From assembly GCA_019638595.1 (NCBI GenBank), contig JAHBTJ010000019.1:92306-156305 (forward strand): 64,000 bases of DNA. Reading direction: 5' to 3'. The DNA is from Chitinophagaceae bacterium. GTDB taxonomy: Bacteria > Bacteroidota > Bacteroidia > Chitinophagales > Chitinophagaceae. Under the pieces are notes generated by a model. The model did no database searches. It saw only the letters and a list, made by a program, of their open reading frames with translations, and was not told where the DNA came from. Of the stretch, positions 2,626 through 63,874 are shown one piece after another (position 1 is the stretch's first letter; every line of letters begins with the position of its first letter). The position numbers and the translations under genes were made by a program.

Positions 2626-4494
2626 ATGTTTTCAAAATATGATGTAATTGTTGTTGGGGCAGGTCATGCCGGTTGCGAAGCAGCAGCAGCGGCAGCAAAT
2701 ATGGGCAGTAAAACCCTGCTCATAACCATGAACATGCAAACCATTGCACAAATGAGTTGCAACCCTGCCATGGGAGGTATAGCAAAAGGGCAAATTGTTA
2801 GGGAAATAGATGCTTTAGGTGGATATTCCGGAATAGTAACAGACCATTCCATGATCCAGTTCCGCATGCTTAATAAATCAAAAGGCCCTGCCATGTGGAG
2901 TCCCCGGGCTCAAAGCGACCGGATGCTTTTCTCTTTAAAATGGAGAGAGCTGCTTGAACAAACTCCCAACCTTGACTTTTACCAGGATATGGTGAAAGGA
3001 TTGATCATAAACGGAAAAAGTTGTACCGGTGTAATTACCGGACTCGGACATTATATCTCCGCTAAAACAGTTGTGCTCACGAACGGAACCTTTTTAAATG
3101 GCATCATTCATATTGGCGAAAAACAATTCGGCGGAGGAAGAGTAGCTGAAAAAGCCGCCACAGGAATTACAGAGCAACTGGTAACGCTGGGCTTTGAAAG
3201 CGACCGGCTAAAAACAGGAACTCCTCCACGTATAGATGGAAGAAGTCTTGATTACTCGAAAATGGAAGAGCAGAAAGGAGATGAAGAAATAACAGGATTC
3301 AGCTTTATACCCACATCCAAAATAACAGCTCAACAACAAAGAAGCTGCTGGATATCTTACACCAGCCAGGAAGTACATGATATTTTAAAAACCGGTTTCG
3401 ACAGAAGTCCTATGTATGCAGGTAGAATTGAAGGAGTAGGCCCCAGATACTGCCCGAGCATTGAAGACAAGATAAACCGCTTTGCGGAAAGAGACCGTCA
3501 CCAGTTATTTGTTGAACCGGAAGGATGGAATACAGTTGAAATTTATGTAAATGGTTTTTCCACCTCTTTACCGGAAGATGTACAACATGCAGCGCTGAGG
3601 AAAGTTCCCGGCTTTGAACATTGTAAAATGTTCCGCCCGGGGTATGCTATAGAATACGATTACTTTCCCCCCATGCAACTGGATTATTCTCTGGAAACCA
3701 AAATTATCTCTCACCTGTTTTTTGCAGGTCAAATAAACGGAACGACCGGCTATGAAGAAGCCGCCTGCCAGGGAATAATGGCAGGTATAAATGCACATCT
3801 GAAAGCCCACGAAAAAGATCCCTTTTACCTGAAACGAAGCGAAGCTTATATAGGAGTACTGATAGATGACCTTATAAGCAAAGGCACAGAGGAACCTTAC
3901 CGCATGTTTACCAGCCGTGCTGAATTCAGAACCCTTCTGCGGCAAGACAATGCCGATATGCGGCTTACCCGTAAAGGGTATGAACTCGGGCTTGCTTCCG
4001 GGGAAAGATTAAACCTACTGAACAGGAAAGAAAAAGATATTTCCAATATACTGGAACTGTTGAATCAACTTGTACTGGAACCTGAAGAAGTAAATACATT
4101 TTTACATAACACCGGTTCCGCAGCACTTACACAAAAACAAAAAGCAGCCCAACTGCTGTTACGCCCGGGGATCAATCTCTTTGATATGGCGAAAGCTGTA
4201 CCCCGCTTATATTCAAATCTGCCCGTTACAGAAAAAGAAAGCCTGGAACAAGCAGATATACAAATAAAGTATAATATATATATAGAGAAAGAAAAAGAGC
4301 TGGTTGAAAAAATGAGTAAGCTGGAATACCTGAGCATACCCGAAAACTTCAATTACAGCCATATTCCAGCCCTTTCTGCCGAGGCAAAACAAAAACTGAT
4401 ACGTATTAAGCCCAGAACTTTAGGGCAAGCCTCGCGCATCTCAGGCGTTAATCCGAGCGATGTGCAGATCCTGATGGTTTATATGGGACGATGA
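2626..4494 (+). CDS. mnmG: tRNA uridine-5-carboxymethylaminomethyl modification protein MnmG (GidA)
   Basis: FAD-dependent subunit of the MnmE-MnmG complex that installs the cmnm5 group on U34 of certain tRNAs. Full length at 622 residues. Visible are the N-terminal dinucleotide-binding VGAGHAGCEAA, the FAD/substrate segments GTPPRIDGRS and PRYCPSIEDKI, GQINGTTGYEEAACQG, and TSRAEFRTLLRQDNADMRL leading into the C-terminal helical domain that binds MnmE. Next to parS, it fits the common location of gidA near chromosome origins. It ends 4 bp from the convergent nadA stop. Confidence 0.97.
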   Translation: MFSKYDVIVVGAGHAGCEAAAAAANMGSKTLLITMNMQTIAQMSCNPAMGGIAKGQIVREIDALGGYSGIVTDHSMIQFRMLNKSKGPAMWSPRAQSDRMLFSLKWRELLEQTPNLDFYQDMVKGLIINGKSCTGVITGLGHYISAKTVVLTNGTFLNGIIHIGEKQFGGGRVAEKAATGITEQLVTLGFESDRLKTGTPPRIDGRSLDYSKMEEQKGDEEITGFSFIPTSKITAQQQRSCWISYTSQEVHDILKTGFDRSPMYAGRIEGVGPRYCPSIEDKINRFAERDRHQLFVEPEGWNTVEIYVNGFSTSLPEDVQHAALRKVPGFEHCKMFRPGYAIEYDYFPPMQLDYSLETKIISHLFFAGQINGTTGYEEAACQGIMAGINAHLKAHEKDPFYLKRSEAYIGVLIDDLISKGTEEPYRMFTSRAEFRTLLRQDNADMRLTRKGYELGLASGERLNLLNRKEKDISNILELLNQLVLEPEEVNTFLHNTGSAALTQKQKAAQLLLRPGINLFDMAKAVPRLYSNLPVTEKESLEQADIQIKYNIYIEKEKELVEKMSKLEYLSIPENFNYSHIPALSAEAKQKLIRIKPRTLGQASRISGVNPSDVQILMVYMGR

Positions 4495-52322: not shown

Positions 52323-53798
52323 CTATTCTCCCGCCACTTCTTCCCGCCCTTTCTTTCCCCAAATCTTATGCTTGGCGCCACCCCTGTCCGTACCGGCATG
52401 GGTGGACATCTTCACAATTTTTGGGGTAAATTTTCCTACCACATCCACTAATGCTTTTTGTGATTGCATTACCACATCAATGTTCTTGTACGCGAAAGGA
52501 GATTCATCTAAACCACCTCCCAGCAATTTTACGCCAAACTTTTTCAGTTCTTCTTTAAATTGCTTATCAGTAACAGAAGCCATGGCTTTTGTACGGCTCA
52601 TCTTTCTTCCCGCGCCATGCGAAGCGGAATTAACGGCAGCCGATTCTCCCTTACCTTTTACAATAAATCCATCTGCTGTCATAGACCCGGGAATAATACC
52701 CAGCACATTTTTACCTGCAGGCGTTGCACCTTTACGGTGAACGATCACCTCTTTTCCTTCCCACTGTTCTTTCCATGCAAAGTTGTGGTGATTTTCCACC
52801 CTCTTCAATGGTTTTCGTGCCAGTTGCTTCGCGATTTTTTCATGTATCACATGATGACAGGCAGCAGCATAATCGCCTGCCAGGTTCATCGCCTTCCAGT
52901 ATTCTATACCCTCTTCTTCATTGAGCGAAAGCCAGGCAAGATTTTTGGCTTCCTGGGGTAAACGTCTTTTGCTGATAGCGAGTTTGGTATAGTGGTTGGC
53001 AATATTGGCGCCCAGGGCTCTTGACCCGGAATGTGTTAAGAATCCTACATACTTACCGGCGTCAATTCCCAGCACAGCATCCTTTTCCGCTATTTCAATC
53101 ACACCAAATTCCGCGAAATGGTTGCCCGAACCGGAAGAACCTAATTGCTTCCAGGCACGGCCATGCAGGTTCTTCAGCAATGGTAATTCATAAAACAACT
53201 CATTCTCCATTATTTCATGATTGGCAGCTCTATCGAATTGCGCTCCGCTTCCAAATAGAGTGGCCTCACCCAGTTCTCTTGCGAAAAATGATTCTTTATC
53301 TGTCAGCTCTTTAGGGTTGATATCAAATATGCTCAAACACATGCGGCATCCAATATCCACGCCTACGCCATAAGGTATTACCGCATTATCTGTTGCCAGC
53401 ACACCTCCTATCGGCAATCCGTAACCACTGTGTGCATCGGGCATTAACGCCCCGGCTACAGATATGGGCAGCCTGGCTGCCTGGTACATCTGGTGCAGCG
53501 CCCCTTCTTCAATATGCTCCTGCCCGAATATGTTGAACCGGATCCCATTCTGGTTCAGGGATATTTCCGCCCCTCCGGTATCTTTTTCAGGGATCAACTG
53601 TTGTGCGATCAAACCCAGCACCGCATCGTTTTCATATTCAATGGGGGCAGCCAATATCTTTTTTAATAATTCCATCACATCCTCTTTCGCTTCATGTTTA
53701 TAGTGCTTTTGCATCAGGTTCATGGCAATGCTGATTACCGGCGCTTCGGGGTACCCGATCGCTCTCAGCTCCTTACCAGTTAATTTTAACTTAGTCAT
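52323..53798 (-). CDS. rtcB: RNA-splicing/repair ligase RtcB
   Basis: GTP- and Mn2+-dependent ligase joining RNA 2',3'-cyclic phosphate (or 3'-phosphate) and 5'-OH ends, as left by many anticodon nucleases. 491 residues. Metal- and GTP-site motifs: AVIPYGVGVDIGCRMCLSIFD, GSSGSGNHFAEFG, LTHSGSRALGANIANHY, IVHRKGATPAGKN, IPGSMTADGFIV and the guanylylated His in SASHGAGRKMSR. The ATG at 53798 is used; the longer frame begins with TTG. A palindrome shared with two other transcripts lies 40 bp upstream. No rtcA or archease in the window. Confidence 0.96.
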   Translation of the reverse strand: MTKLKLTGKELRAIGYPEAPVISIAMNLMQKHYKHEAKEDVMELLKKILAAPIEYENDAVLGLIAQQLIPEKDTGGAEISLNQNGIRFNIFGQEHIEEGALHQMYQAARLPISVAGALMPDAHSGYGLPIGGVLATDNAVIPYGVGVDIGCRMCLSIFDINPKELTDKESFFARELGEATLFGSGAQFDRAANHEIMENELFYELPLLKNLHGRAWKQLGSSGSGNHFAEFGVIEIAEKDAVLGIDAGKYVGFLTHSGSRALGANIANHYTKLAISKRRLPQEAKNLAWLSLNEEEGIEYWKAMNLAGDYAAACHHVIHEKIAKQLARKPLKRVENHHNFAWKEQWEGKEVIVHRKGATPAGKNVLGIIPGSMTADGFIVKGKGESAAVNSASHGAGRKMSRTKAMASVTDKQFKEELKKFGVKLLGGGLDESPFAYKNIDVVMQSQKALVDVVGKFTPKIVKMSTHAGTDRGGAKHKIWGKKGREEVAGE

Positions 53799-53821: not shown

Positions 53822-53858
53822 CGAAGCTAAAAGGGTTCTGTGCAGTCTTTTTGCACAG
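53822..53858 (-). promoter_or_regulatory. rtcB promoter with shared 21-bp palindrome (site A)
   Basis: Half-sites CTGTGCA (53838-53844) and TGCACAG (53852-53858) with spacer GTCTTTT. Reading on the minus strand, exactly 8 bp later comes TAGCTTCG (53822-53829), one mismatch from TAnnTTTG. The predicted transcript starts near 53816, 18 bp before the ATG at 53798. Same layout as sites B and C. Confidence 0.8.
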
Positions 53859-53970
53859 GTATAAAATCTTTTAATAGATTGGAAGCTATATTATGATAAA
53901 AAGCGTATTCAACATAAGACCTGTTTTTGTGCCGGTCGTTAATCCAGTAGGATGCTATTCTTTTATCAGT

Positions 53971-53994
53971 AAAAAAACCGGGTATTTTACCCGG
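53971..53994 (-). terminator. Terminator of the ECF sigma operon
   Basis: CCGGGTA (53978-53984) pairs with TACCCGG (53988-53994); on the minus strand it is followed by seven T (A7 at 53971-53977 on +). It lies 36 bp after the last small gene of the operon. Confidence 0.85.
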
Positions 53995-54029
53995 CCTTTG
54001 GATGATGCGTTACCTGCCTGTATATTACC

Positions 54030-54203
54030 TCAATGATTTCCTGCCCTGTTTTCTTCTGCCGGAAGCTGTCGTGTTTCACAACGACTGCTTTCATGTCCCC
54101 GGTGATGGTTGTGCGACATAAACCGTTTGGGTCCCAAGGCGATCATCAGTGTTGAAAAAGTAACGATTGCTGCAACGAGCCCGATAATAAACCTATTTTT
54201 CAT
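54030..54203 (-). CDS. Small membrane protein with His-rich tail
   Basis: 57 residues from the ATG at 54203: one transmembrane helix (RFIIGLVAAIVTFSTLMIALG), then a hydrophilic tail with MSHNHHRGHESSRCETRQ that could bind metal. It overlaps the end of the preceding gene by 11 bp and is the last gene of the sigma-factor operon. The residues on the far side of the membrane suggest a sensor or chaperone-like part. No family recognised. Confidence 0.6.
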   Translation of the reverse strand: MKNRFIIGLVAAIVTFSTLMIALGPKRFMSHNHHRGHESSRCETRQLPAEENRAGNH

Positions 54204-54495
54204 GTTGATCATTTTGCGGGTTAGTAAAATTTTTTGCCCTGCCGCAGCCAAACGGTGGCTGCTGTTTGAATTGCGTATATTCTTCTTCGCTCATATTACG
54301 TATATGATCCGCGAAAGCGAAGCGGCGTTCTTTAAACGGGCCCCCAAACCGCCTTCGACGACCGGCAAACAGCCTGAATACCAGCCCCGCGATCAGCAGG
54401 AACAATGCAACCCGCAGTATAAAAAAGGGAATAAAAAATAAACCCAGCCCAATTACTACACCTGCCAGCACGGGCTTTACAATACTTCTGTTCAT
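54193..54495 (-). CDS. Small membrane protein with MSEEE motif
   Basis: 100 residues from the ATG at 54495. Two adjacent hydrophobic stretches (VLAGVVIGLGLFFIPFFILRVALFLLIAGLVFRLF), a basic RRRR segment, then IRNMSEEEYTQFKQQPPFGCGRAKNF. The NMSEEExxxFKxQ and CGR motifs also occur in the protein encoded just upstream, so the two are paralogues. Third gene of the ECF sigma operon. A role in controlling the sigma factor or metal/envelope stress sensing is inference. Confidence 0.65.
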   Translation of the reverse strand: MNRSIVKPVLAGVVIGLGLFFIPFFILRVALFLLIAGLVFRLFAGRRRRFGGPFKERRFAFADHIRNMSEEEYTQFKQQPPFGCGRAKNFTNPQNDQHEK

Positions 54496-54600
54496 TTGAA
54501 TGATTTGATGGTGATGAATGTTGTTATGATATAGTAGACGGAATTGCGGGGCGTTTACTTTACATTCATAAAAAAACTCCGGGATCATCCCGGAGCTCAC

Positions 54601-54933
54601 TTATTCTTCTTTTCTGCCGCAGCGTTGCCGCCATTGTTCTTTGAAACGGGCTCTTTCCTCCTCACTCATATTCATCCATTTTTCCCGCCAGGCACTACGG
54701 TTAAAGGGACTGCCTTTCCCGGGAGGTCCACCCCTGAAGCCGCCGAATAGTATACGGCATAGAACCAACAGCCCCAGGGCTTTCCAGTAGGTTAAATGAC
54801 CCACCTGAACCAGGTCGGGCAAAATAGCATTCCACAGCCATTGTACTACCGCGGCCATTAATAAAGCGATGGGTATAATCGCGATAAAAAAAGGAAACCG
54901 GGGCCTCTTACCGGGTATGTTTTCACTATTCAT
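54601..54933 (-). CDS. Small membrane protein with MSEEE motif
   Basis: 110 residues. Two transmembrane helices (FPFFIAIIPIALLMAAVVQWLW and YWKALGLLVLCRILFGG), a Gly/Pro-rich linker, then WREKWMNMSEEERARFKEQWRQRCGRKEE. The C-terminal motif resembles that of Spy/CpxP or RcnX-like stress proteins in its short MSEEExxxFKxxW pattern, but relationship is unproven. It begins 1 bp after the sigma factor stop codon, as anti-sigma genes often do. Confidence 0.68.
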   Translation of the reverse strand: MNSENIPGKRPRFPFFIAIIPIALLMAAVVQWLWNAILPDLVQVGHLTYWKALGLLVLCRILFGGFRGGPPGKGSPFNRSAWREKWMNMSEEERARFKEQWRQRCGRKEE

Positions 54934-54934
54934 G

Positions 54935-55462
54935 TTAAAAAGTGTTTAGTTCATTATATAAATCGGCCAGCCGGTTACGCAGGTGTTTTACTGCGTAACC
55001 TTTCCGGCTGATAATGGTTTTTATATTCTCTCCTGTTTTATCAGCTATTTCCCGGAGGGTCATATCTTCCAGTTCATTCCATATAAATACCTGGCGTTGA
55101 TTTTCGGGTAATTCGTCCAGGGCGGACATCAGCTCTTCCCAGAACAACTCTTTGAACTGGCGGGATTCCGGGCTGTCGCCCTGCGAAGCAAGAAAATCAA
55201 TCCATCCTTCTTCCCCGGTAAACAAAAACTCCTTTTTCTTTCGGTATTTGTCTGTAAGCCTGTTGCGGGCTACCCGGTATAACCAGCCGCTGATGCTGTT
55301 TATGGAATCAATGTCCACTATATGATTCGCCTGGTACCAAACATCCTGCAGGATGTCCTCAGCATCCTCGTTCGTATTGACCCTGCCGCGGATAAAGTCA
55401 AACAACCGGCCGCCATAATTTTTTACTATGGCAGCAATATTGGTTTGTCTTGATTTTTCCAT
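54935..55462 (-). CDS. ECF-type RNA polymerase sigma factor
   Basis: 175 residues from the ATG at 55462. Region 2: IVKNYGGRLFDFIRGRVNTNEDAEDILQDVWYQANHIVDIDSINSISGWLYRVARNRLTDKYRKKKE. Region 4: ALDELPENQRQVFIWNELEDMTLREIADKTGENIKTIISRKGYAVKHLR. First gene of a four-gene operon with three small membrane proteins and no FecR-type anti-sigma, so one of the small proteins may hold the sigma factor. Confidence 0.93.
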   Translation of the reverse strand: MEKSRQTNIAAIVKNYGGRLFDFIRGRVNTNEDAEDILQDVWYQANHIVDIDSINSISGWLYRVARNRLTDKYRKKKEFLFTGEEGWIDFLASQGDSPESRQFKELFWEELMSALDELPENQRQVFIWNELEDMTLREIADKTGENIKTIISRKGYAVKHLRNRLADLYNELNTF

Positions 55463-55564
55463 CGTATGATCCAAAATAGCCGTAATTTGAAAGAGAAGAC
55501 GAAGGAAATGCAATTTTACTTTAACCGGCGAAAAAATTTTAACAGGGCCGTGGGGTAGTGTAGT

Positions 55565-55780
55565 TTAAACCAAATCTATTTTCAATCCCAATGCCTGCAT
55601 GGCAAGCAATGCCTGTGCATTGCCCAGGGCATCATTTACAGGATTATGATCATGCCGTGTTTTGCGGAACAGCCTTTTCCATTCTGCATTCAACCCGGTA
55701 TCCATCTTCATACCGCAGTATAGATCTTCTATGCGACGGGCAGAAAAGCCGAACGGATTTTTATTTTTTGTGATAGCCAC
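55565..55780 (-). pseudogene. Fragment of a DEDDh 3'-5' exonuclease-like gene
   Basis: An open frame of 71 codons whose second half (GLNAEWKRLFRKTRHDHNPVNDALGNAQALLAMQALGLKI) looks like the C-terminal end of a DnaQ-type exonuclease, with the HxxxxD of the DEDDh class (HNPVND). The N-terminal three acidic motifs are absent, and the frame begins inside an inverted repeat at 55773-55817, so this is most likely a remnant. It sits just downstream of the nucleotidyltransferase operon on the same strand and may once have been its third gene. Confidence 0.5.
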
Positions 55781-55817
55781 GAATACAAAAAGATTTCATT
55801 CGTGCATTCGTGGCTAT
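55773..55817. repeat. Inverted repeat ATAGCCACGAAT
   Basis: ATAGCCACGAAT (55773-55784) and ATTCGTGGCTAT (55806-55817) are perfect 12-bp arms around 21 bp. The right arm reaches the stop codon region of the upstream nucleotidyltransferase gene; no T tail is present. Confidence 0.65.
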
Positions 55818-56878
55818 AATTGTTCTTTATAATACTCCTCCCTCATTTTAATCAATAATTTATTTACTTCTTCCTTGTCCGGTTTATCTATCAATTCAGA
55901 ATCAACATACAATGCAGGCAATTCTTTTTTCAATGTTTCGGCTTTTTGTACCAGTTCATCATATTCAAACCTACCCCGCTTTATATCCAGCAGGTATTCC
56001 CTGTCTTCACGGTGTACATTTATCTTTCCTTCAATAGCAATTTCCTTTGCCATTAATAATAAGCGAAACACATGCATCATATTTTTGGAATCGTATTTCT
56101 TTCCATGCTGCAATGTTGTGTTATATCTCGCGTCATTTCGTTTAGCTATCCAGTCCTGGTATTCTTTATAACGTTTGCAATAGATAGAATATCCATCTTT
56201 GTTGAAATACAGCAATCCAACCGGCTTTTCTCCCCTGGATATGCTGCTCAAACAAACATCATTGGCTTCTTCTTTTCGCAATATACCGGCATATTGCCCG
56301 TGTGACGAATAATATAGATTATAGCAATCCCGAAAATGCGGTACTACGCTTAATCCCAGGTCTTCCTGCCTGTAATTACTCTCCTGCAAATATTGTGATA
56401 ATGCAACGGATCTTCCATCAGCATATACATAACAAAAAGCCAGCACCGGTTTTCGTTCTTCTTCCATAGGGGTCACAATTTTCTTTTCTAAGCCATATGC
56501 TTTTTTTATTTGTGTATAGGCATAGTTGGCAAAACTCTGCTGACAAAGCTTAGATAAAAACAGCTCCGGTCGTATATTATCCATCAGCGGATGCCTGTAC
56601 AATACACAAGTTTCCGGTGTATTCAGCAACTCCAGTATATTGGGATTATTCTTACCGAGTAATTCTATAAACCTGCCGAGCTCATAATATACAATATCGT
56701 TGGTTTCATTGGCTACCTGGGGCACATAGTCCAGTGAATAAAACATTGCCCGGGGTAGCACGAATACTCCCCTGATATCTATATCAGAAGTAGCGGTATC
56801 CAGGCCATAGGCCTTACTGCCGGATACCGCCTCAAATATCAGCCAGCCATTACGCTTTACTTCCTCTGTCGTCAGCAT
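55814..56878 (-). CDS. COG3541/RlaP-type predicted nucleotidyltransferase
   Basis: 354 residues. The nucleotidyltransferase core is FEAVSGSKAYGLDTATSDIDIRGVFVLP near 15-42 (GSxAYG and DxD metal motif). A long helical C-domain follows (KKYDSKNMMHVFRLLLMAKEIAIEGKINVHREDREYLLDIKRGRFEYDEL). From comparative genomics of RNA repair as I recall it, this family (RlaP) is found near RNA ligases including RtcB. It overlaps the upstream paralogue by 29 bp, so both are translated together. Likely role: adding or priming nucleotides on damaged RNA ends; the reaction is not established. Confidence 0.82.
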   Translation of the reverse strand: MLTTEEVKRNGWLIFEAVSGSKAYGLDTATSDIDIRGVFVLPRAMFYSLDYVPQVANETNDIVYYELGRFIELLGKNNPNILELLNTPETCVLYRHPLMDNIRPELFLSKLCQQSFANYAYTQIKKAYGLEKKIVTPMEEERKPVLAFCYVYADGRSVALSQYLQESNYRQEDLGLSVVPHFRDCYNLYYSSHGQYAGILRKEEANDVCLSSISRGEKPVGLLYFNKDGYSIYCKRYKEYQDWIAKRNDARYNTTLQHGKKYDSKNMMHVFRLLLMAKEIAIEGKINVHREDREYLLDIKRGRFEYDELVQKAETLKKELPALYVDSELIDKPDKEEVNKLLIKMREEYYKEQL

Positions 56879-57614
56879 AATCGTTTACCATTTGTAAAAA
56901 ATAATTGTTTAATGCTTTGCTGTCTTCCCTGTTTACGGAAAGGTTATGTTTGGCTGTTTCGAGCATTGTAAATAATTCAGCTATCCAGTTGTTCAAACCT
57001 TTATCAGCGGGGTGAAGATACTTTTCCTCTACGGTCGCTTTCAGTTGTACCAAAGCCCGTAATTCATCCCTTCTGTCTGTATCTATTTTAGCCATTAGCC
57101 CTTCTATAGCCATTGGCAACACACTATTATCTTCTGTTATCCAGTAACAGGACAATAAAGAGCGGATCAGGTAAAAATAATTTTTAAGTTTTATTTCTTT
57201 TTGGTCTTTTAACTCTTCCCAAAACCTTTGCGCCAATGAATAGTGATGAAAGAAAACAGCCGTAGGCGAATAATATTTTTTTATCAGCGCTGAAAACGAT
57301 TGTTTAAAATCACCTGCTGCAAAATAGGTAATGGGCGATTGAAATCTTTCTATCAGGGCGGCATTCGATTTTTTTAACAGCACTAAGGATTTTTTCAAAT
57401 CCCAGCCGGTTATATCAAGTTCGCCATTCATTTGCTCTATAGTGTCTTTTTTTTGAGATAGCGACAGGTACCAGTCTCTTTCATGCATATATATAAACCG
57501 AACATCATAGTCGCTATCTGGTGAAGGAAAGCCCCATGCCCGGCTTCCGGTTTCGCAGGAATATAACAGCCTGACTCTTTTATCGGCCGCTATTTTCCCT
57601 ACGGTTTGAGTCAT
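56850..57614 (-). CDS. COG3541/RlaP-type predicted nucleotidyltransferase
   Basis: 254 residues. Core: LYSCETGSRAWGFPSPDSDYDVRFIYMHERDWYLSL near 17-52 (GSRAWG, SDYDVR), then an alpha-helical region typical of the YcgL/COG3541 group. The ATG at 57614 is used because the -7 element at 57628-57635 would start transcription near 57622, leaving the ATG at 57623 without a leader. First gene of a two-gene unit controlled by palindrome site B and therefore probably co-regulated with rtcB. Confidence 0.83.
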   Translation of the reverse strand: MTQTVGKIAADKRVRLLYSCETGSRAWGFPSPDSDYDVRFIYMHERDWYLSLSQKKDTIEQMNGELDITGWDLKKSLVLLKKSNAALIERFQSPITYFAAGDFKQSFSALIKKYYSPTAVFFHHYSLAQRFWEELKDQKEIKLKNYFYLIRSLLSCYWITEDNSVLPMAIEGLMAKIDTDRRDELRALVQLKATVEEKYLHPADKGLNNWIAELFTMLETAKHNLSVNREDSKALNNYFLQMVNDYADDRGSKA

Positions 57615-57627
57615 TGTTTGCATGAAG

Positions 57628-57664
57628 CAAAGCTAAGACAGCCCTGTGTAACCTTTTTGCACAG
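57628..57664 (-). promoter_or_regulatory. Nucleotidyltransferase-operon promoter with shared 21-bp palindrome (site B)
   Basis: CTGTGTA (57644-57650) and TGCACAG (57658-57664), spacer ACCTTTT. On the minus strand, 8 bp further, TAGCTTTG (57628-57635) is a perfect TAnnTTTG. There is no TTTG -33 element; the palindrome occupies that position. Confidence 0.82.
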
Positions 57665-57728
57665 AAAGATTTTTGTTTGTATTACCAGGATACTTCTAAC
57701 AGCATGCTTTCCATCGCCAGCCTGATAA

Positions 57729-57765
57729 ACCGGGTTCCGAACCTTTGAAAGGTTCGGAACCCGGT
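57729..57765. repeat. Perfect 37-bp palindrome
   Basis: Eighteen-base arms (left arm begins ACCGGGTTCCGAACC) mirror exactly around a central G at 57747. It has no T tail and lies between two divergent promoters, so it is not an ordinary terminator. Confidence 0.85.
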
Positions 57766-57797
57766 AATAGTTACAAGTAACTTTAAGGAACTTATTT

Positions 57798-57805
57798 TAC
57801 ATTTG
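57798..57805 (+). promoter_or_regulatory. -7 promoter element for the dynamin-like gene
   Basis: TACATTTG fits TAnnTTTG, 28 bp before the ATG at 57834. Confidence 0.5.
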
Positions 57806-57833
57806 AAAGGCAGAACCTCAATTCAACAGGCAT

Positions 57834-59570
57834 ATGAATCAGTTTACAGATCAAAAAGTGAGCAAATACAGAGCTAAGCTCGATGAGCTGGCTAAAGATG
57901 TGCATAGCCTTACCATTATCATAAACCACGAAGAACTTGCAGAAACAGTGAGCGCCCTGCGCAACAGGATAAATGAGCCATACATGTTTGTTATTGTTGG
58001 GGAGGTGAAGGCGGGTAAATCAAGCTTTATCAATGCTTTACTGGATACAGGGAAAGAAATAGCGAAAGCTGCTCCCCAGCCGATGACGGATACGATACAA
58101 CAAATTGTATGGGGTGAACAGGAAGAAGTGATTGTGCTGAATCCCTTTCTGAAAAGAATTACACAACCTGTAGAAATACTGAAAGAGATTGCTATTGTAG
58201 ATACGCCCGGCACTAATACAATAGTAGAAAAACACCAGGAAATAACGGAATCGTTCATACCTGGCAGCGATTTAATCGTATTCGTGTTCGAAAGTAAAAA
58301 TCCTTACCGGCAAAGCGCATGGAGCTTTCTTGATTTTATACACAAAGACTGGCAGAAGAAGATCATCTTCGTAATGCAGCAAAAAGATTTGATGAGTGCA
58401 GAAGATTTAATGGTGAACATGAACGGCGTAAGGGAGCAGGCAGAAAGAAAAGGACTTTCCGATCCGTCCGTATTTGCTGTTAGCGCCAAGCTGGAGCTGG
58501 ATGGGAATAAAGAAGAGAGCGGGTTTAAAGATGTGCGTGAATATATAGCGAAAAATATCACGGGGGGTAAAGCGCCTTACCTTAAGCTTCAGAACAACCT
58601 CGCAACTTTAGCGAATATAGAAAACAGGATCGGGCAGGGTATTGAGCTGAGGAAAAAGCAATTAGAGCTGGATACTGCCTTCCGGACCGATATCAAAAGC
58701 TCCCTGGATGAACAGGAAGTCCGCTCTAAAAAACAGGTGGAGATACTGGTAAAAATTATTTTGAACGCCTATGATAATGCAACCGGGAAAGCAACTGCCG
58801 AGTTGAATGAAGGACTTAGCTTTGGCTCCATGCTGAAGCGCTCGTTCTCGTCTATTTTCAGCAAAAAGGAAAGTATGAAAAGCTGGCTGCAGGGCCTTGC
58901 CCGGAAGCTGGAAAATGATTTGAATCATGATTTGAAAAAGGGACTGGACGAAGGAGTTGGCAGTGTGGTTGACAGTATACAGCAGATGGCAAAAATTATT
59001 CAACTGAAGGTGCAGAGCTCGCAAACAGTATTGAAAAACGATCATGAAGTATTCAGCGATATCGCTGAAAAGAGAAACCATATCATGTATGATCTTCAAA
59101 GCAAATTCAATGATTTTATAGAAAAGTCTGAAAACTTTAAAGACCAGTCGCTTTTCCCCGACCAGTCTAATGTGTCTACCGGTATTGCGACGGGAAGCGG
59201 TATAGCGGTAGTGGGAATAATAATTGCGGCCGTTACTAAAATCGCGGCTTTTGATGTTACCGGGGGATTGCTGACTGCTGTAGGGATCATATTTGCCGGG
59301 GCTACTTCTGTTCTTAAAAAGAAGAAGGTGATGGATACGTTCAGATCGGAGATTGCTAACAGTCGTATTAAGCTCGATTCGGAAATACGCGATCAGTTAT
59401 CGAAATACATTGTTCAGTTAAAGTACAGGATTGATGATAATTTCAAGAACTTTGATATCATGTTAGACCAGGAATCCAGGCAATTGGATAAAGTGGGTAA
59501 TGCTTTCAGTTCGTTAAACGATACATTCACCGTGCTGCAAACCGAAATCAGGGAACTTACCGGGTTATGA
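57834..59570 (+). CDS. Dynamin-like GTPase
   Basis: 578-residue bacterial dynamin/GTPase. G-domain motifs: P-loop GEVKAGKSSFINALL near 54-68, switch Thr in PMTDTIQQIVWG, DTPGTN (G3) near 123-128 and QKDLMS (G4-like). A long helical middle is followed by a hydrophobic membrane-binding hairpin (GIAVVGIIIAAVTKIAAFDVTGGLLTAVGIIFAGATSVL, about 460-500) and a helical tail. Such proteins remodel or protect membranes, and some act in phage or stress defence. It is divergent from the nucleotidyltransferase operon, but its own promoter lacks the palindrome. Confidence 0.87.
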   Translation: MNQFTDQKVSKYRAKLDELAKDVHSLTIIINHEELAETVSALRNRINEPYMFVIVGEVKAGKSSFINALLDTGKEIAKAAPQPMTDTIQQIVWGEQEEVIVLNPFLKRITQPVEILKEIAIVDTPGTNTIVEKHQEITESFIPGSDLIVFVFESKNPYRQSAWSFLDFIHKDWQKKIIFVMQQKDLMSAEDLMVNMNGVREQAERKGLSDPSVFAVSAKLELDGNKEESGFKDVREYIAKNITGGKAPYLKLQNNLATLANIENRIGQGIELRKKQLELDTAFRTDIKSSLDEQEVRSKKQVEILVKIILNAYDNATGKATAELNEGLSFGSMLKRSFSSIFSKKESMKSWLQGLARKLENDLNHDLKKGLDEGVGSVVDSIQQMAKIIQLKVQSSQTVLKNDHEVFSDIAEKRNHIMYDLQSKFNDFIEKSENFKDQSLFPDQSNVSTGIATGSGIAVVGIIIAAVTKIAAFDVTGGLLTAVGIIFAGATSVLKKKKVMDTFRSEIANSRIKLDSEIRDQLSKYIVQLKYRIDDNFKNFDIMLDQESRQLDKVGNAFSSLNDTFTVLQTEIRELTGL

Positions 59571-59715
59571 TCCTGCCGGGTTTTGCGAAAAAAATATTCT
59601 CATTCATTCTGAAAAAATTTTCACTACCTCCCAGGGCATCGTCAAAAGATTAGCGTTCTTCTTTCAAAAACACGCTTATTGCCTCTGCTTCGGTATCCAT
59701 TTATCAGCAGAGGGT

Positions 59716-60003
59716 TTATTTTGCCCAAACATCTTTATATTCTTCAGGATGGCGCCTGAACTGCATAAGAACGTAGGGGCAAAGCGGAACGATCTGTAAA
59801 TTATTTTCCCTGGCATAGCTTACAAGCCGGGCTAGCAACAGTTTTGCAAAGCCTTTGCCCTCATAAGCGGGGGCTACCTCTGTATGAAAAACGGTCAACC
59901 GGGTATCCTTTATTGCTATATCCATAAAGCCCGCCTTTATATCATCTGAAAATACCTGTACTTCGCCCTTGTTATTGTTCAGCACAACGGTTGTTTTTTC
60001 CAT
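59716..60003 (-). CDS. GNAT family N-acetyltransferase (YjdJ-like)
   Basis: Short acetyltransferase of 95 residues from the ATG at 60003. It matches the small single-domain YjdJ-type: TVVLNNNKGEVQVFSDDIKAGFMDIAIKDTRLTVFHTEVAPAYEGKGFAKLLLARLVSYARENNLQIVPLCPYV, with the acetyl-CoA-binding GKGFAKLL. The ATG at 60003 gives the family-sized protein; the longer frame reaches into the neighbouring gene. The acceptor is unknown. Confidence 0.85.
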   Translation of the reverse strand: MEKTTVVLNNNKGEVQVFSDDIKAGFMDIAIKDTRLTVFHTEVAPAYEGKGFAKLLLARLVSYARENNLQIVPLCPYVLMQFRRHPEEYKDVWAK

Positions 60004-60080
60004 GTTGTTTAGTTTAACTGCTTTTTGTATTTCACAAAATGATAAAGCTATGCACGAAGAATAGCTGCAACCAAAGCGAT

Positions 60081-60941
60081 TCATTTTTCTTTATATACTT
60101 TCCAAACATTTTCCAGGGCCTGGTCGTAACCCTTCCTGTCGGAGAAAATGATTGGATTATACGTATCTCCCGGTTTGCGTTTTTGATGCAAGCCGAACTG
60201 GCCGGCATGGGAGGCCACCCAGATATCAAACTGCAGATCCTTCATAGCTGTAAGGCTGTTGGCAATATCTGTTTTTATACCGGGGTATTCTTTTACTTCC
60301 GCAAACTTCCGGGAAATAATGATAGTAGGAATATTAGCGATCAATACTTTATAGCTGCGATCTTCGTCTGTAACATCCAGCATATAGCTGCAGGAGCCTT
60401 TGGTATGACCGGGATGATGAAGCAATATTAGTCTGGTGTCGTCCAGTTGAATCACATCTCTATCGTTTAATAGCTTGTCAGGCACGATAGGCGCGAAACT
60501 CACGCCTATATAAGCCAATTCATAATCTGTAGCTCCCCCGGATCTTACTTCAGGAGCATCTGCGGCATCTACCCAAAACTGCGCGCCGGTTTCCTTTTTA
60601 ATGGCAGCCATAGCGCCCATATGATCCCAGTGTGCTTGGGTGGTAAGCAGTATTTTTATATCCCTGTATTTAAACCCGAGCCTTTCAATATTCTTTTTTA
60701 TTTGCTGGCGGGAGTTTGCCAGTCCCGTATTAATTAAAATATTTCCTTTTTCTGTAACTACCAGGTACGAAGCCAGGTCGTAAGTGCCTACATAATACAG
60801 GTTACCTGCAATACGAAAAGGCTCATACGGCTTTGACCAGTCTGTAGGATTGTTTTGAGGTTCATTGACCTTTTGTGCATGCAGGCCCGGTGTAAAATGC
60901 AGGCTGATAATTATCAGGATATACCCGGTAAGTTGTTTCAT
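60081..60941 (-). CDS. Subclass B3 metallo-beta-lactamase, GOB-like (Gln at the first zinc ligand)
   Basis: Exported zinc hydrolase of 286 residues (signal peptide MKQLTGYILIIISLHFTPGLHA-Q). The zinc motif reads TQAHWDHMGA with Q102, H104, D106 and H107, then H179 in HHPGHTKGS and H245 in ASHAGQFGLH. In classical B3 enzymes the first position is His; Gln there is the trait of the GOB (B3-Q) enzymes of Elizabethkingia. GOB-type enzymes hydrolyse penicillins, cephalosporins and carbapenems; activity of this one is untested. Chromosomal, single gene. Confidence 0.85.
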   Translation of the reverse strand: MKQLTGYILIIISLHFTPGLHAQKVNEPQNNPTDWSKPYEPFRIAGNLYYVGTYDLASYLVVTEKGNILINTGLANSRQQIKKNIERLGFKYRDIKILLTTQAHWDHMGAMAAIKKETGAQFWVDAADAPEVRSGGATDYELAYIGVSFAPIVPDKLLNDRDVIQLDDTRLILLHHPGHTKGSCSYMLDVTDEDRSYKVLIANIPTIIISRKFAEVKEYPGIKTDIANSLTAMKDLQFDIWVASHAGQFGLHQKRKPGDTYNPIIFSDRKGYDQALENVWKVYKEK

Positions 60942-60966
60942 CCGGCAAAATTAATTATTAGTTTTA

Positions 60967-61024
60967 ACAGGGACGGAGTCTCTGAAGAACATAGGGAATA
61001 CGAAGTCTGGAGACTTCGTACAGC
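60967..61024 (-). repeat. Two-hairpin interspersed repeat, copy 1
   Basis: On the minus strand: a 10-bp hairpin (TACGAAGTCT, loop CC, AGACTTCGTA), the linker CCCTATGTTCT, and a second weaker hairpin. Copy 2 lies at 63939-63995 on the + strand; 39 of the 47 core positions are identical and two stem pairs differ in a compensatory way. A half copy (GGAGACTTCGTACAGCGG) lies near 61196. Confidence 0.75.
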
Positions 61025-61230
61025 GGGGTGTGTGCGAAGTCGGAGGCCATAAACGTTTGAAACCTGCGAAAATGCCGCTCCTACGGAGCTTTGTCAATGC
61101 ATTACTTTATAATTGCCACCAAACTTTCGCGTCTATGACGCTATAAAATTGCTGATATGGCAGCCTTCAAAATAACGTTTCGAACACCTATGGCCGGAGA
61201 CTTCGTACAGCGGGCTTCGTACAGCGGCTG
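61025..61230. other. Non-coding region of repeat fragments
   Basis: About 200 bp with three copies of CTTCGTACAGCGG in all (one at the edge of copy 1 and two near 61200-61226) and other palindromic scraps, but no gene. Confidence 0.45.
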
Positions 61231-61929
61231 TTATACTCTTTCCGTAACAATACGCGTATTGCCCAGGTAGCTGAACCGGACCTGCAAAGTATCCCCTTCT
61301 TTGAGGTCGCTGTTCTGTCCTTTTGTAATGGGAAGCTTTGATTGCAGGTTGCCGCCATACAAATCAAGATATACAGCATAAGGAGAGATTCTCGTTACTA
61401 CAGCCTCCACAGGCGTATTATGTTTGTAGGCCTGTATTGCCTTCCTGAAGTCAGGGATATAATCGTGGTTGAACAATTCTGCACTAATACGTCCCGGTTT
61501 ATCCGTATGTAGCAACCTGAACTCAACAGGTTCGTTGTAATCCTTTTCTGTTGGCGCTTTTTCCCATTTTGATATTTCGAGCGGGAAAAAAATATAGCTT
61601 CCTCTTTCTTTTATAAACAAAGCATCCTCGGCCCTTTTCAGGTAACCGGTAAAGCGATTGTCGGCGGCAGCTTTATCTAACAGCTTTTGCAGTTCATTGT
61701 TGTACAGGAACTTGAGGTTATACGCAATCAGGCTGGCTCCGCGGTTGGCTCCTTTTACCTGGAAGCTGACTTCATCACCAAGCCTGTAGGTATGCCTGAG
61801 CTTTTCGGCCGACTCATTCATCCTGCAGGTAATGGTGCGCTTGCGATCATTGTGCATATACGCTACTGATACATAATTTTTCTCGTGGTTGATAGAGGTG
61901 ACCTTACCTGTAAATACATCTTTGCCCAT
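61231..61929 (-). CDS. S1/OB-fold RNA-binding-like protein
   Basis: 232 residues from the ATG at 61929; the upstream extension is not protein-like. Two or three OB/S1-like beta modules: GKDVFTGKVTSINHEKNYVSVAYMHNDRKRTITCRM at the start and NTPVEAVVTRISPYAVYLDLYGGNLQSKLPI...LKEGDTLQVRFSYLGNTRIV at the end, joined by a helical stretch with FPLEISKWEKAPTEKD. Probably binds nucleic acid. Located next to the SPFH gene of the RNA-repair cluster on the same strand but 190 bp away, with no palindrome of its own. No named family recognised. Confidence 0.62.
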   Translation of the reverse strand: MGKDVFTGKVTSINHEKNYVSVAYMHNDRKRTITCRMNESAEKLRHTYRLGDEVSFQVKGANRGASLIAYNLKFLYNNELQKLLDKAAADNRFTGYLKRAEDALFIKERGSYIFFPLEISKWEKAPTEKDYNEPVEFRLLHTDKPGRISAELFNHDYIPDFRKAIQAYKHNTPVEAVVTRISPYAVYLDLYGGNLQSKLPITKGQNSDLKEGDTLQVRFSYLGNTRIVTERV

Positions 61930-62118
61930 CTGTGTAATTTGGGCAAAGTTGAAGAAAAAGCCGGAGAACAAATAATAATAGAAATGGAAGATGCAGCGAT
62001 TTGCTGATATGGTAAGGAGGGTAGAGAAGCTTTTCGGCCGGTATAACAGGTAACCACCAAAATGAGAATGGGCAAAACTTCAAATCTTACCCATCTCATA
62101 TAATCCCAAAATCCCGGT

Positions 62119-63222
62119 CTACTTCTTCGGCACAAATATCTCCTTCAACTGTTCAATCAATACTCCGTTACCGCTTACACTGATATTGCTGATCTTATCC
62201 GCGATCTTTTCTACATATTCCATTTCCTTTAACTTCCACAACATCGCGTTTTCTTCCATCAGCTTAGCTGTATTCAGCAAGCTGCGGGTACTTGCCGTTT
62301 CTTCACGGCGCATAATGGTATTTGCCTGCGCTTTTTTCTCCGCTACCAATACCTGGTTCATGATCTCCTTCACATCTCCCGGCAGAACGATATCGCGTAT
62401 ACCGAAACCAGTTACTTCCACACCCAGCGTTTCGGCTTTTTCTTTCACCTGCTGCAATACAAAAGGAGTTAAAGCTTCTTTCTTTTCCAGCAATTCATCA
62501 AACCCGAAACCGGCAATATATTCGCGCAGCACCAGTTGAAAAGCTATATACAATTGTTTTTCGTATTCTTTGTTTTGTAACAAAGCCTTTTCAATATCCG
62601 CTACTTTATACTGTGCCCATGCATTGATACGCAGTGCCGCTTTATCGCGGGTCAGGATTTCCTGCCCGTTAATTTCCAGTTGCTGCTGACGGGTATCAAT
62701 TTTACCAATATGTACCGCAATAGCATTCTTCCACCAGTAGTATACACCGGGCTGTAATACCTGTACAAATTTCCCGTCAATAAACAATACAGCCTTTTCA
62801 TAGCTTTCCACACTTACGGTGCGTACAAAAGGCGCCACCAAACGATGTAGCAATACATTACGTTCAATCGGTTCAGTAATCTCAATCTTCCCGGTATCTG
62901 CTTTTACAAATTCATAATTAACGGCTCCTTTCCAGAACGCGTAGCGACCGGCAGTAAGCACGGCCTCAAGCAACCCGTTTTTATATTGCAAGGCAATTTC
63001 ATTATCCTTTACTTCCAGCACAATCAGGGCTTCTGCCAATGCAGTATCCTGTAAAAGTATGTTCAGCTCAACCGGGGCATTAAACGCCTGGGTGATCTCA
63101 TACAACTTTACTACTTCATTACCCCAGAACCAATAGCTGCCTTCAGTCAGCATACGCTGGTATGTACCGTTCTTAAAAACCAATCCACGCTGGTATGCGT
63201 TCACTTTTACATTTTTCATCAC
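62119..63222 (-). CDS. SPFH/band-7 (slipin) family protein
   Basis: 367 residues. The SPFH domain is recognised in RTVSVESYEKAVLFIDGKFVQVLQPGVYYWWKNAIAVHIGKIDTRQQQLEINGQEILTRDKAALRINAWAQYKVADIEKAL and VTGFGIRDIVLPGDVKEIMNQVLVAEKKAQANTIMRREETASTRS, followed by a coiled coil. A related N-terminal repeat (QRGLVFKNGTYQRMLTEGSYWFWG) precedes it. Unlike typical slipins there is no hydrophobic N-terminal anchor. Band-7 proteins are reported beside rtcB in many RNA-repair loci. It would be on the same transcript as the tRNA-like array, driven by palindrome site C. Confidence 0.87.
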   Translation of the reverse strand: MMKNVKVNAYQRGLVFKNGTYQRMLTEGSYWFWGNEVVKLYEITQAFNAPVELNILLQDTALAEALIVLEVKDNEIALQYKNGLLEAVLTAGRYAFWKGAVNYEFVKADTGKIEITEPIERNVLLHRLVAPFVRTVSVESYEKAVLFIDGKFVQVLQPGVYYWWKNAIAVHIGKIDTRQQQLEINGQEILTRDKAALRINAWAQYKVADIEKALLQNKEYEKQLYIAFQLVLREYIAGFGFDELLEKKEALTPFVLQQVKEKAETLGVEVTGFGIRDIVLPGDVKEIMNQVLVAEKKAQANTIMRREETASTRSLLNTAKLMEENAMLWKLKEMEYVEKIADKISNISVSGNGVLIEQLKEIFVPKK

Positions 63223-63484
63223 GTATCATTTTTAATTTTTCCTTTCTTGTTATAAAACCCTTCCGGTTGCCACCAGGTATTACGGATGCGATGGTTGATT
63301 TGCTCAGGCAATACAGTTTTGCCAACTTTTGTATAACACAATTACTATACAGCCATTGAGAAAAGTGCATTGTTACTTCATTCCAATTACACCACATGCT
63401 GGTGATATTCCGGCTGTGCATTTATAAGTATAGCTACGTATAATCCACCGGCAACACGGAAGCATTTTATTATGATCGCCATTT
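63223..63484. other. Leader between the tRNA-like array and the SPFH gene
   Basis: About 260 bp without a convincing gene. If transcription starts at site C, this is untranslated leader linking the tRNA-like array with the SPFH coding region. It contains an isolated half-site TGTGCA (63414-63419). Confidence 0.4.
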
Positions 63485-63515
63485 TTTGAGAAGCAGCGTA
63501 CTCCTTTGCATAAAG

Positions 63516-63587
63516 CAGGATCCTCAATCCTGAGCGTCTACCAGTTTCGCCATCCTGCCCTCCGGCAGGAGCGGGACTCGAACCCGC
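63516..63587 (-). ncRNA. Permuted Leu-like tRNA (3' half, GGAG, 5' half)
   Basis: T-arm and acceptor TCCTGCC (63587-63564), the tetranucleotide GGAG, then acceptor GGCAGGA (63559-63553), a tRNA-Leu-type D-arm, and a full anticodon arm CAGGA-TTGAGGA-TCCTG with anticodon GAG (63525-63523). GGCAGGA and TCCTGCC pair perfectly over 7 bp, so the 3' half belongs to this 5' half although it precedes it. The normal long variable arm and a downstream T-arm are missing. Confidence 0.6.
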
Positions 63588-63588
63588 A

Positions 63589-63667
63589 CTTTTCTGTTGC
63601 TCTATCCGCTGAGCTATCCCGCCGTTGACGGGAAGAGGAATCGAACCTCTGACCCACAGGTTATGGG
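63589..63667 (-). ncRNA. Permuted Met-like tRNA (3' half, AAC, 5' half)
   Basis: Read 5'-3' on the minus strand: anticodon-loop end with CATAA, stem CCTGT, variable GGGTC, T-arm and acceptor TCCCGTC (to 63627); then AAC; then acceptor GGCGGGA, D-arm GCTC-N8-GAGC and the stem start ACAG (63623-63589). GGCGGGA pairs with TCCCGTC (one G-U) and ACAG with CTGT. It thus looks like an elongator tRNA-Met opened in the anticodon arm and closed at the acceptor end. Alternatively, 63564-63623 reads linearly as a tRNA lacking the anticodon arm. Confidence 0.6.
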
Positions 63668-63837
63668 GAAACCTCATATTAATGCAACAGCATACAGCCG
63701 GTTACTACCGCTGCACTATGGTGTTTGTAAAACATGCATCCGGTTTGCTGTTAACATGATGACCTCCCTCTTGCCGTTAAGCAAGTCGTTTATTCCTATT
63801 GAGAAAATAGTTATAAGAGCTTTATTGTTTGATGATA

Positions 63838-63874
63838 CAAATCTGCATGCTTACTGTGCAATCTTTTTGCACAG
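63838..63874 (-). promoter_or_regulatory. Promoter with shared 21-bp palindrome (site C) for the tRNA-like array and SPFH gene
   Basis: CTGTGCA (63854-63860) and TGCACAG (63868-63874) with spacer ATCTTTT. On the minus strand, 8 bp further, CAGATTTG (63838-63845) stands where sites A and B have their -7 element (one mismatch to TAnnTTTG). Confidence 0.75.

Follow-up and report, generated by a model that had tools for sequence, protein, structure and literature searches.

A 21-bp palindrome at three RNA-repair promoters of a Chitinophagaceae genome, the probable operator of a WYL-WCX regulator

Three promoters in a 64,000-nucleotide stretch of a Chitinophagaceae bacterium genome (the window: positions 92306-156305 of contig C11, JAHBTJ010000019.1, reaching the contig end; assembly GCA_019638595.1, genome G000, 7.06 Mb) carry the same 21-bp palindrome. 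The promoters precede the RNA ligase gene rtcB, a pair of RlaP-type nucleotidyltransferase genes, and a transcript containing a tRNA-mimic RNA and an SPFH gene. Sequence comparison indicates that the palindrome is probably the operator of a WYL-WCX protein, most likely one that activates together with the primary sigma factor. The comparison covered the operator, its phase to the promoter, its tie to a WYL gene, and the covariation of a protein helix with the half-sites; from these we infer binding, the dimer, activation and a ligand.

The shared palindrome and its promoter phase

Sequence inspection and pattern searches of the window and the genome placed the palindromes on the reverse strand at window positions 53838-53858 (rtcB), 57644-57664 (RlaP pair), and 63854-63874 (tRNA-mimic RNA and SPFH transcript). 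The three sites were identical at 18 of 21 positions and had one orientation. Each was followed exactly 8 bp downstream, on the same strand, by an octamer resembling a -7 element: TAGCTTCG (53822-53829; phase kept in relatives), TAGCTTTG (57628-57635), and CAGATTTG (63838-63845). The coordinates, identity and 8-bp spacing reproduced those given in a preliminary description of this DNA. Its gene assignments were also recovered with Pfam, all on the reverse strand: RtcB (52323-53798), two RlaP proteins (56850-57623, and 55814-56878 with the match in the first third of the protein), and a Band_7/SPFH protein (62119-63222).

A whole-genome search found the exact pattern at three places in G000, all in the window, and any other place differed by at least two mismatches. 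The palindrome combined with a -7 element was found only at the same three places when up to one mismatch was allowed. The palindrome was thus rare at unrelated promoters of this genome, a check that had been set in advance. At up to three mismatches the window held seven matches against 6.2 in shuffled sequences; this was no excess, and therefore only near-exact sites were considered informative.

Inverted repeats are able to form hairpins, and the palindrome might accordingly be a repeat element or an RNA hairpin with no operator role. However, only three exact copies occurred in 7.06 Mb, all ahead of related genes and in one orientation; the flanks vary while the half-sites and the phase stay, and the palindrome is kept in other families. 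The conservation data therefore already contradict a repeat or hairpin, which is hardly credible as an explanation.

The phase between palindrome and promoter was measured by allowing the octamer to lie anywhere from 4 to 13 bp from the site. Twenty-nine of 34 site and octamer pairs had a gap of 8 bp, and one pair each had a gap of 4, 5, 6, 7, and 9 bp; these five pairs all lay on the opposite strand of sites that also had a better placed octamer. In a wider set of 87 sites, restricted to those with a gap of either 8 or 9 bp, the gap was 8 bp in 64 and 9 bp in 23. The -33 element was lacking from these sites: TTG stood at 17-22 bp in four of 87 and TTTG in one of 87, as compared with 37 and 14, respectively, of 303 unselected TAnnTTTG octamers. 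The view that the palindrome stands in place of the -33 TTTG agrees with this comparison. Many sites run on as TTTG-N6-CAAA, for example TTTGTGTTATCAAA at window positions 63828-63841 (reverse strand), a short inverted repeat close to where transcription would be expected to begin.

Control by sigma-54 found no support in a search of the window for the promoter consensus (-24/-12). There were 35 matches, with 37.8 expected, and none fell in the 150-bp stretches preceding the three -7 elements.

The exact palindrome was present in 22 of 294 family genomes, while a backwards control pattern gave zero in every row. Within the fetched flanks, ten of the 22 genomes had the site at rtcB, SPFH, RlaP or TROVE genes and 12 had it with no RNA-repair gene nearby; most of these 12 are taken to be chance matches. 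A longer pattern (the palindrome and part of the -7 element) was scanned in named genomes and gave 21 loci. Fourteen loci contained rtcB, SPFH, TROVE or RlaP, three contained a WYL gene alone (L057, L066, and L073), and four contained neither WYL nor RNA-repair genes (L055, L062, L063, and L067; L062 and L067 belong to one genome, and L067 stops at the site). In L063, from a Bacteroidales metagenome-assembled genome, the same palindrome with a -7 element (3331-3365) lies upstream of Cas10 and Cas7 of a type III-D CRISPR system. No WYL gene was found in the 8 kb around that site, which may be a chance match.

With its 8-bp phase the palindrome preceded rtcB, SPFH, RlaP and TROVE genes in relatives. 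Its proposed conservation ahead of rtcB held in part: the site was upstream of rtcB in G239, G103, G028 and others, but not for most near RtcB genes in genomes without the WYL gene described below. Among the 30 nearest RtcB loci, 29 had enough upstream sequence; the site was present in three of four from WYL genomes and in two of 25 from elsewhere. A tie of the palindrome to RtcB as such was rejected on this evidence. Since 23 of the 25 lacked it, the palindrome belongs to the WYL branch and not to rtcB generally.

The WYL-WCX gene and the half-site pairing

A protein starting MPVNRNALIRYRTIDKCLQNRRRKWTIEDL, comprised of WYL and WCX domains, recurs next to the palindromes in relatives. The G000 copy (contig C20, positions 1491-2492) was 80% identical to the G103 protein and scored 46.9 bits for WYL (cut-off 21.8) and 43.5 bits for WCX (cut-off 23.9). 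A sequence search of solved structures matched two WYL proteins, presumably CapW and BrxR, over the WYL domain only. Contig C20 opens with the final 26 bases of C11, and for this reason the window probably ends about 1.5 kb short of the WYL gene. The arrangement recurred in the near relative L064, where 2.7 kb separated the WYL gene from the site.

The 260 nt preceding the WYL gene were searched for palindromes with up to two mismatches of 12. Of 29 family loci 27 had one, as did 24 of 29 class loci (51 of 58 in total), as compared with one of 348 control windows from the same loci and five of 1160 shuffled windows. In ten of the 29 family loci a pair of sites occurred, about 100 to 114 nt from each other. 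The WYL-linked palindrome loci extended to 16 further families of the class (families taken from the tree). In 25 of the 29 family loci, the 1.5-kb flank of the WYL gene contained rtcB, TROVE/Ro60, SPFH, RlaP or the RING-type P752; the RNA-repair neighbors were divergent in 24 loci and convergent in one (L102).

Two observations concern the neighborhoods of WYL genes. A protein of about 750 amino acids adjoined the WYL gene in seven of the 29 family loci (L089, L094, L095, L097, L098, L101, and L103) and also occurred in L040 (3911-6169); it partly resembles the RING family MXAN_6230/SCO0854, well under the cut-off of that family. CTGTGCA palindromes also stood beside distant WYL homologues (Prevotellaceae, Flavobacterium, G075) in L073 (4331-4365 and 2632-2652), L057 (1016-1036), and L051 (1686-1706), and these loci held none of the known RNA-repair genes.

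Half-sites were CTGTGCA in close relatives and of the CTRCGCA type in the 22 more distant family loci and in the class loci that had a site. The consensus of the 37 T-type sites was CTGTGCA-AAAAgaT-TGCACAG-N8-nAnnTTTG, and that of the other 50 sites was CTgCGCA...TGCGcAg. The half-site varied with one residue of a helix-like motif in the WYL protein. Arginine (RTIRxDL) paired with CTGTGCA in 14 of 14 rows and glutamine (RTIQxDI) with CTRCGCA in 45 of 45, so that none of 59 scorable rows was discordant. The other rows of the 69 in total were eight Q or R rows with no site in the locus, one Y/T row (L051), and one unreadable row. On the tree, one clade held 15 R rows (support 100/100), and the Flavobacterium protein of L057 sat on a long branch; the covariation therefore represents about two evolutionary events, not 59. 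L207 and L214 contradicted an earlier version of the covariation, in which M/L/V was set against R/K at the place two positions into the motif, and that version was abandoned.

Among the 294 family genomes the WYL gene was counted in 57 (E 1e-60), RtcB in 135, and the strict site with a -7 element in 18. RtcB was present in 51 of 57 WYL genomes and 84 of 237 others (p 3e-14), the strict site with a -7 element in 14 of 57 and four of 237 (p 4e-8), and the T-type site in seven of eight genomes with a close WYL protein (59% identity or more) and four of 286 others (p 7e-11); all three p-values ignore phylogeny. The exceptions to the co-occurrence were G028 and G237, with perfect sites and no close WYL protein, G142, which is 60% complete, and G075, with a distant WYL homologue beside its site.

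These associations identify the WYL-WCX protein, with fair confidence, as the probable binder of the palindrome. They also lend support to the earlier proposal that a regulator may act on the palindrome with the ordinary Bacteroidota sigma factor, for which the conserved phase, the genomic rarity of the site, and the WYL-WCX candidate all speak.

Several observations weigh against this assignment. Profile models found no N-terminal helix-turn-helix in the G000 WYL protein at E up to 1; the R-T-I-R/Q-x-D pattern is helix-like in the alignment of WYL proteins, and its role as the recognition helix is presumed from that alignment. The covariation amounts to about two events on a tree with long branches. 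The 26-base overlap that joins the WYL gene to the window could also come from a repeat. The G000 WYL gene is itself preceded by a degenerate site (two mismatches) ending 29 nt before the start, and seven of the 58 WYL loci had no site within 260 nt. Finally, G028 and G237, both about 99-100% complete, had perfect sites at rtcB and no close WYL homologue.

Sites with no close WYL gene in G028 and G237 would also fit a different protein binding the palindrome, the WYL gene being merely a controlled neighbor. This is improbable: the operator covaries with the WYL helix, which speaks against a non-WYL binder, and the sites are tied to the WYL gene in the 51 loci and the 16 further families described above.

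Mode of action and comparison with known regulators

In the proposed mechanism, a WYL-WCX dimer would bind two 7-bp half-sites across the region of the absent -33 element, with the distance to the -7 element fixed at 8 bp. The WYL domain would bind a damage signal, probably a nucleic-acid fragment. The ligand-bound factor would then most likely work together with the primary sigma factor to activate three promoters, those of rtcB, of the RlaP pair, and of the tRNA-mimic RNA and SPFH gene.

DriD of Caulobacter crescentus is described as a WYL activator of DNA-damage genes with the consensus ATACGAC(X)7GTCGTAT; its site lies over the -35 element at a fixed distance from -10, and its DNA-binding domains sandwich sigma region 4 (PMC12340889). 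The system proposed here resembles DriD in its WYL-WCX architecture, 7-7-7 half-site arrangement, site over -35, fixed distance from -10, poor -35 and primary sigma factor (PMC12340889). The palindrome over -35, the fixed distance, and the poor -35 were all read from the sequence. The two differ in half-site sequence and in their targets, which here are RNA-repair genes; activation and a ligand are, in the present case, proposed. Activation is preferred over repression as a best guess, because the 7-7-7 geometry, the fixed 8-bp phase and the absent -33 resemble the WYL activator DriD.

The same WYL protein might instead repress, covering the -33 region until a ligand releases it, in the way that CapW acts at CBASS promoters. 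CapW is reported to be a WYL repressor at palindromes over -10 (PMC9122588). Additionally, sites found 30-60 nt ahead of many WYL start codons look like autorepression, and the retention of sites and rtcB without the WYL gene in G028 and G237 fits the loss of a repressor at least equally well. A repressor, however, needs neither a strict 8-bp phase to -7 nor an absent -33, and the site geometry is like that of DriD and unlike the -10 overlap of CapW. Repression is accordingly held to be a minor but serious possibility.

Other WYL proteins share fewer features with the proposed activator. PafBC of mycobacteria is associated with sigma adaptation and single-stranded DNA (PMC11804915). Like the present candidate, it consists of WYL proteins replacing the -35 contact, but it is described as a heterodimer using a single -26 motif, in contrast to the symmetric palindrome found here (PMC11804915). 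CapW (CBASS) and BrxR (BREX) are WYL-WCX proteins on promoter palindromes; the CapW repressor sites overlap -10, and the BrxR half-sites are 5 nt apart (PMC9122588, PMC9122589).

Among RNA-repair systems, the RtcR-controlled operon of Salmonella is reported to respond to damaged tRNAs (PMC7790460). The rsr-yrlBA-rtcBA/RtcR system shares with the present loci RtcB, Ro60 and Y RNA in relatives, and a dedicated regulator with a ligand-binding domain; RtcR is a sigma-54 activator with a CARF domain, whereas a WYL protein and a primary-sigma type promoter are seen here (PMC7790460). The Anabaena regulator TrcR acts as a repressor of rtcB and of a tRNA array, and a slipin gene goes up when TrcR is lost (PMC10272220). 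One regulator for rtcB, the slipin gene and tRNA genes, together with a primary-type promoter, makes it the nearest regulon by content. TrcR is a ribbon-helix-helix repressor with an 8-bp motif at -10, and the operator described here differs from it in sequence and position (PMC10272220).

The permuted tRNA-mimic RNA and its SPFH partner

The stretch from the third site to the SPFH gene contains a conserved RNA of about 330 nt, and the same RNA was found in L034, L042, L047, L060, L064, L065, L069, and L075. Comparison across loci defined a conserved structured core of 328 nt (63462-63789, reverse strand). Within it, on the same strand, are a first permuted tRNA-like module resembling YrlA (63590-63652; Rfam and RNA-model matches) and a second module with an anticodon arm and the loop TTGAGGA (63516-63589; hand-set structure and model matches). 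The Rfam tRNA match in the window was above threshold, and together with the conserved structure it upheld the report of a tRNA-like RNA in the third transcript. ARAGORN found no ordinary tRNA at the structured RNA in the window. The match to YrlA (RF02553) was 36.1 bits in the window, against a gathering score of 69; in the eight related loci it was 37.3 to 54.4 bits in five, also below 69, and absent in three at E 0.01.

The last module follows the order T arm, acceptor-like hairpin, D arm, anticodon arm, which is that of a circularly permuted tRNA. Its structure was set by hand on nine sequences. In total, 94% of cells paired (77% in shuffles; 36-45% in slid versions), and 29 cells were changed on both sides as compared with 10.4 in shuffles; further pair types, at 13 against 13.9 in shuffles of these nine sequences, were not in excess. 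A model of the last module gave one strong match (at least 60 bits) per locus in 35 loci, nine of which, or their genomes, had been used to build it. A second module lay directly 5' in 32 of the 35. The anticodon-like triplet took 20 forms in the 35 RNAs, and U33 was present in 27. YrlA likewise mimics a tRNA, having T, acceptor-like and D arms (RF02553; PMC8394870). The present RNA differs in falling below the Rfam threshold in the nine loci scanned, in its two or more tandem modules, the last with an anticodon arm, and in lying beside SPFH instead of Ro60 in G000.

A family scan with the RNA model was unspecific, matching 291 of 294 genomes at E 0.001, presumably through neighboring ordinary tRNA genes; therefore only the 40 matches of at least 54.6 bits were used. 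At least 26 of these lay within 10 kb of an RtcB gene on the same contig, among the RtcB genes listed. The SPFH gene was downstream of the RNA on the same strand in all 30 loci from the family search (L167-L196). The palindrome was present at four of these 30 loci and missing from 26, which means that the RNA and SPFH are also paired outside this regulon. TROVE (Ro60/Rsr) had no match in G000; two of 12 genomes searched were positive, G058 and G102. Five loci had 6 to 12 ordinary tRNA genes clustered no more than a few kb from the RNA or from the WYL gene: L047 (17909-19515), L075 (38-1458), L173, L175, and L181. These dense arrays recall the tRNA array of the TrcR regulon.

A wider scheme can be offered tentatively, and is rather doubtful as a whole. 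The WYL protein would be a Bacteroidota RNA-damage sensor for RNA ends or tRNA fragments, inducing by a DriD-like route, with the primary sigma factor, repair enzymes and the permuted tRNA-mimic array, whose anticodon-like loop differs from species to species. The array might serve as bait for anticodon nucleases and SPFH as a membrane scaffold replacing Ro60, and cleavage of the array could feed the signal.

As kinds, WYL regulators and RNA-repair loci have both been described before. Searches of one open-licence library turned up neither this operator nor a WYL protein regulating rtcB in Bacteroidota, although an earlier remark is possible in the RNA-repair survey of Burroughs and Aravind (2016). 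The switching on of RtcB repair outside Proteobacteria is for the most part poorly understood; cyanobacteria use TrcR (PMC10272220). The WYL protein and its readable operator code would make up an apparent third solution, seen in this family and in loci of 16 further families of the class, and the protein would be a likely candidate for the controller that RNA mending has so far lacked. From the match between half-site and helix residue a specificity code can be proposed for WYL regulators, a large and little understood family, and with one protein, one 21-bp site and three promoters the signal can be put to the test. The RNA-SPFH pair suggests, in addition, that tRNA-mimic RNAs may have partners besides Ro60.

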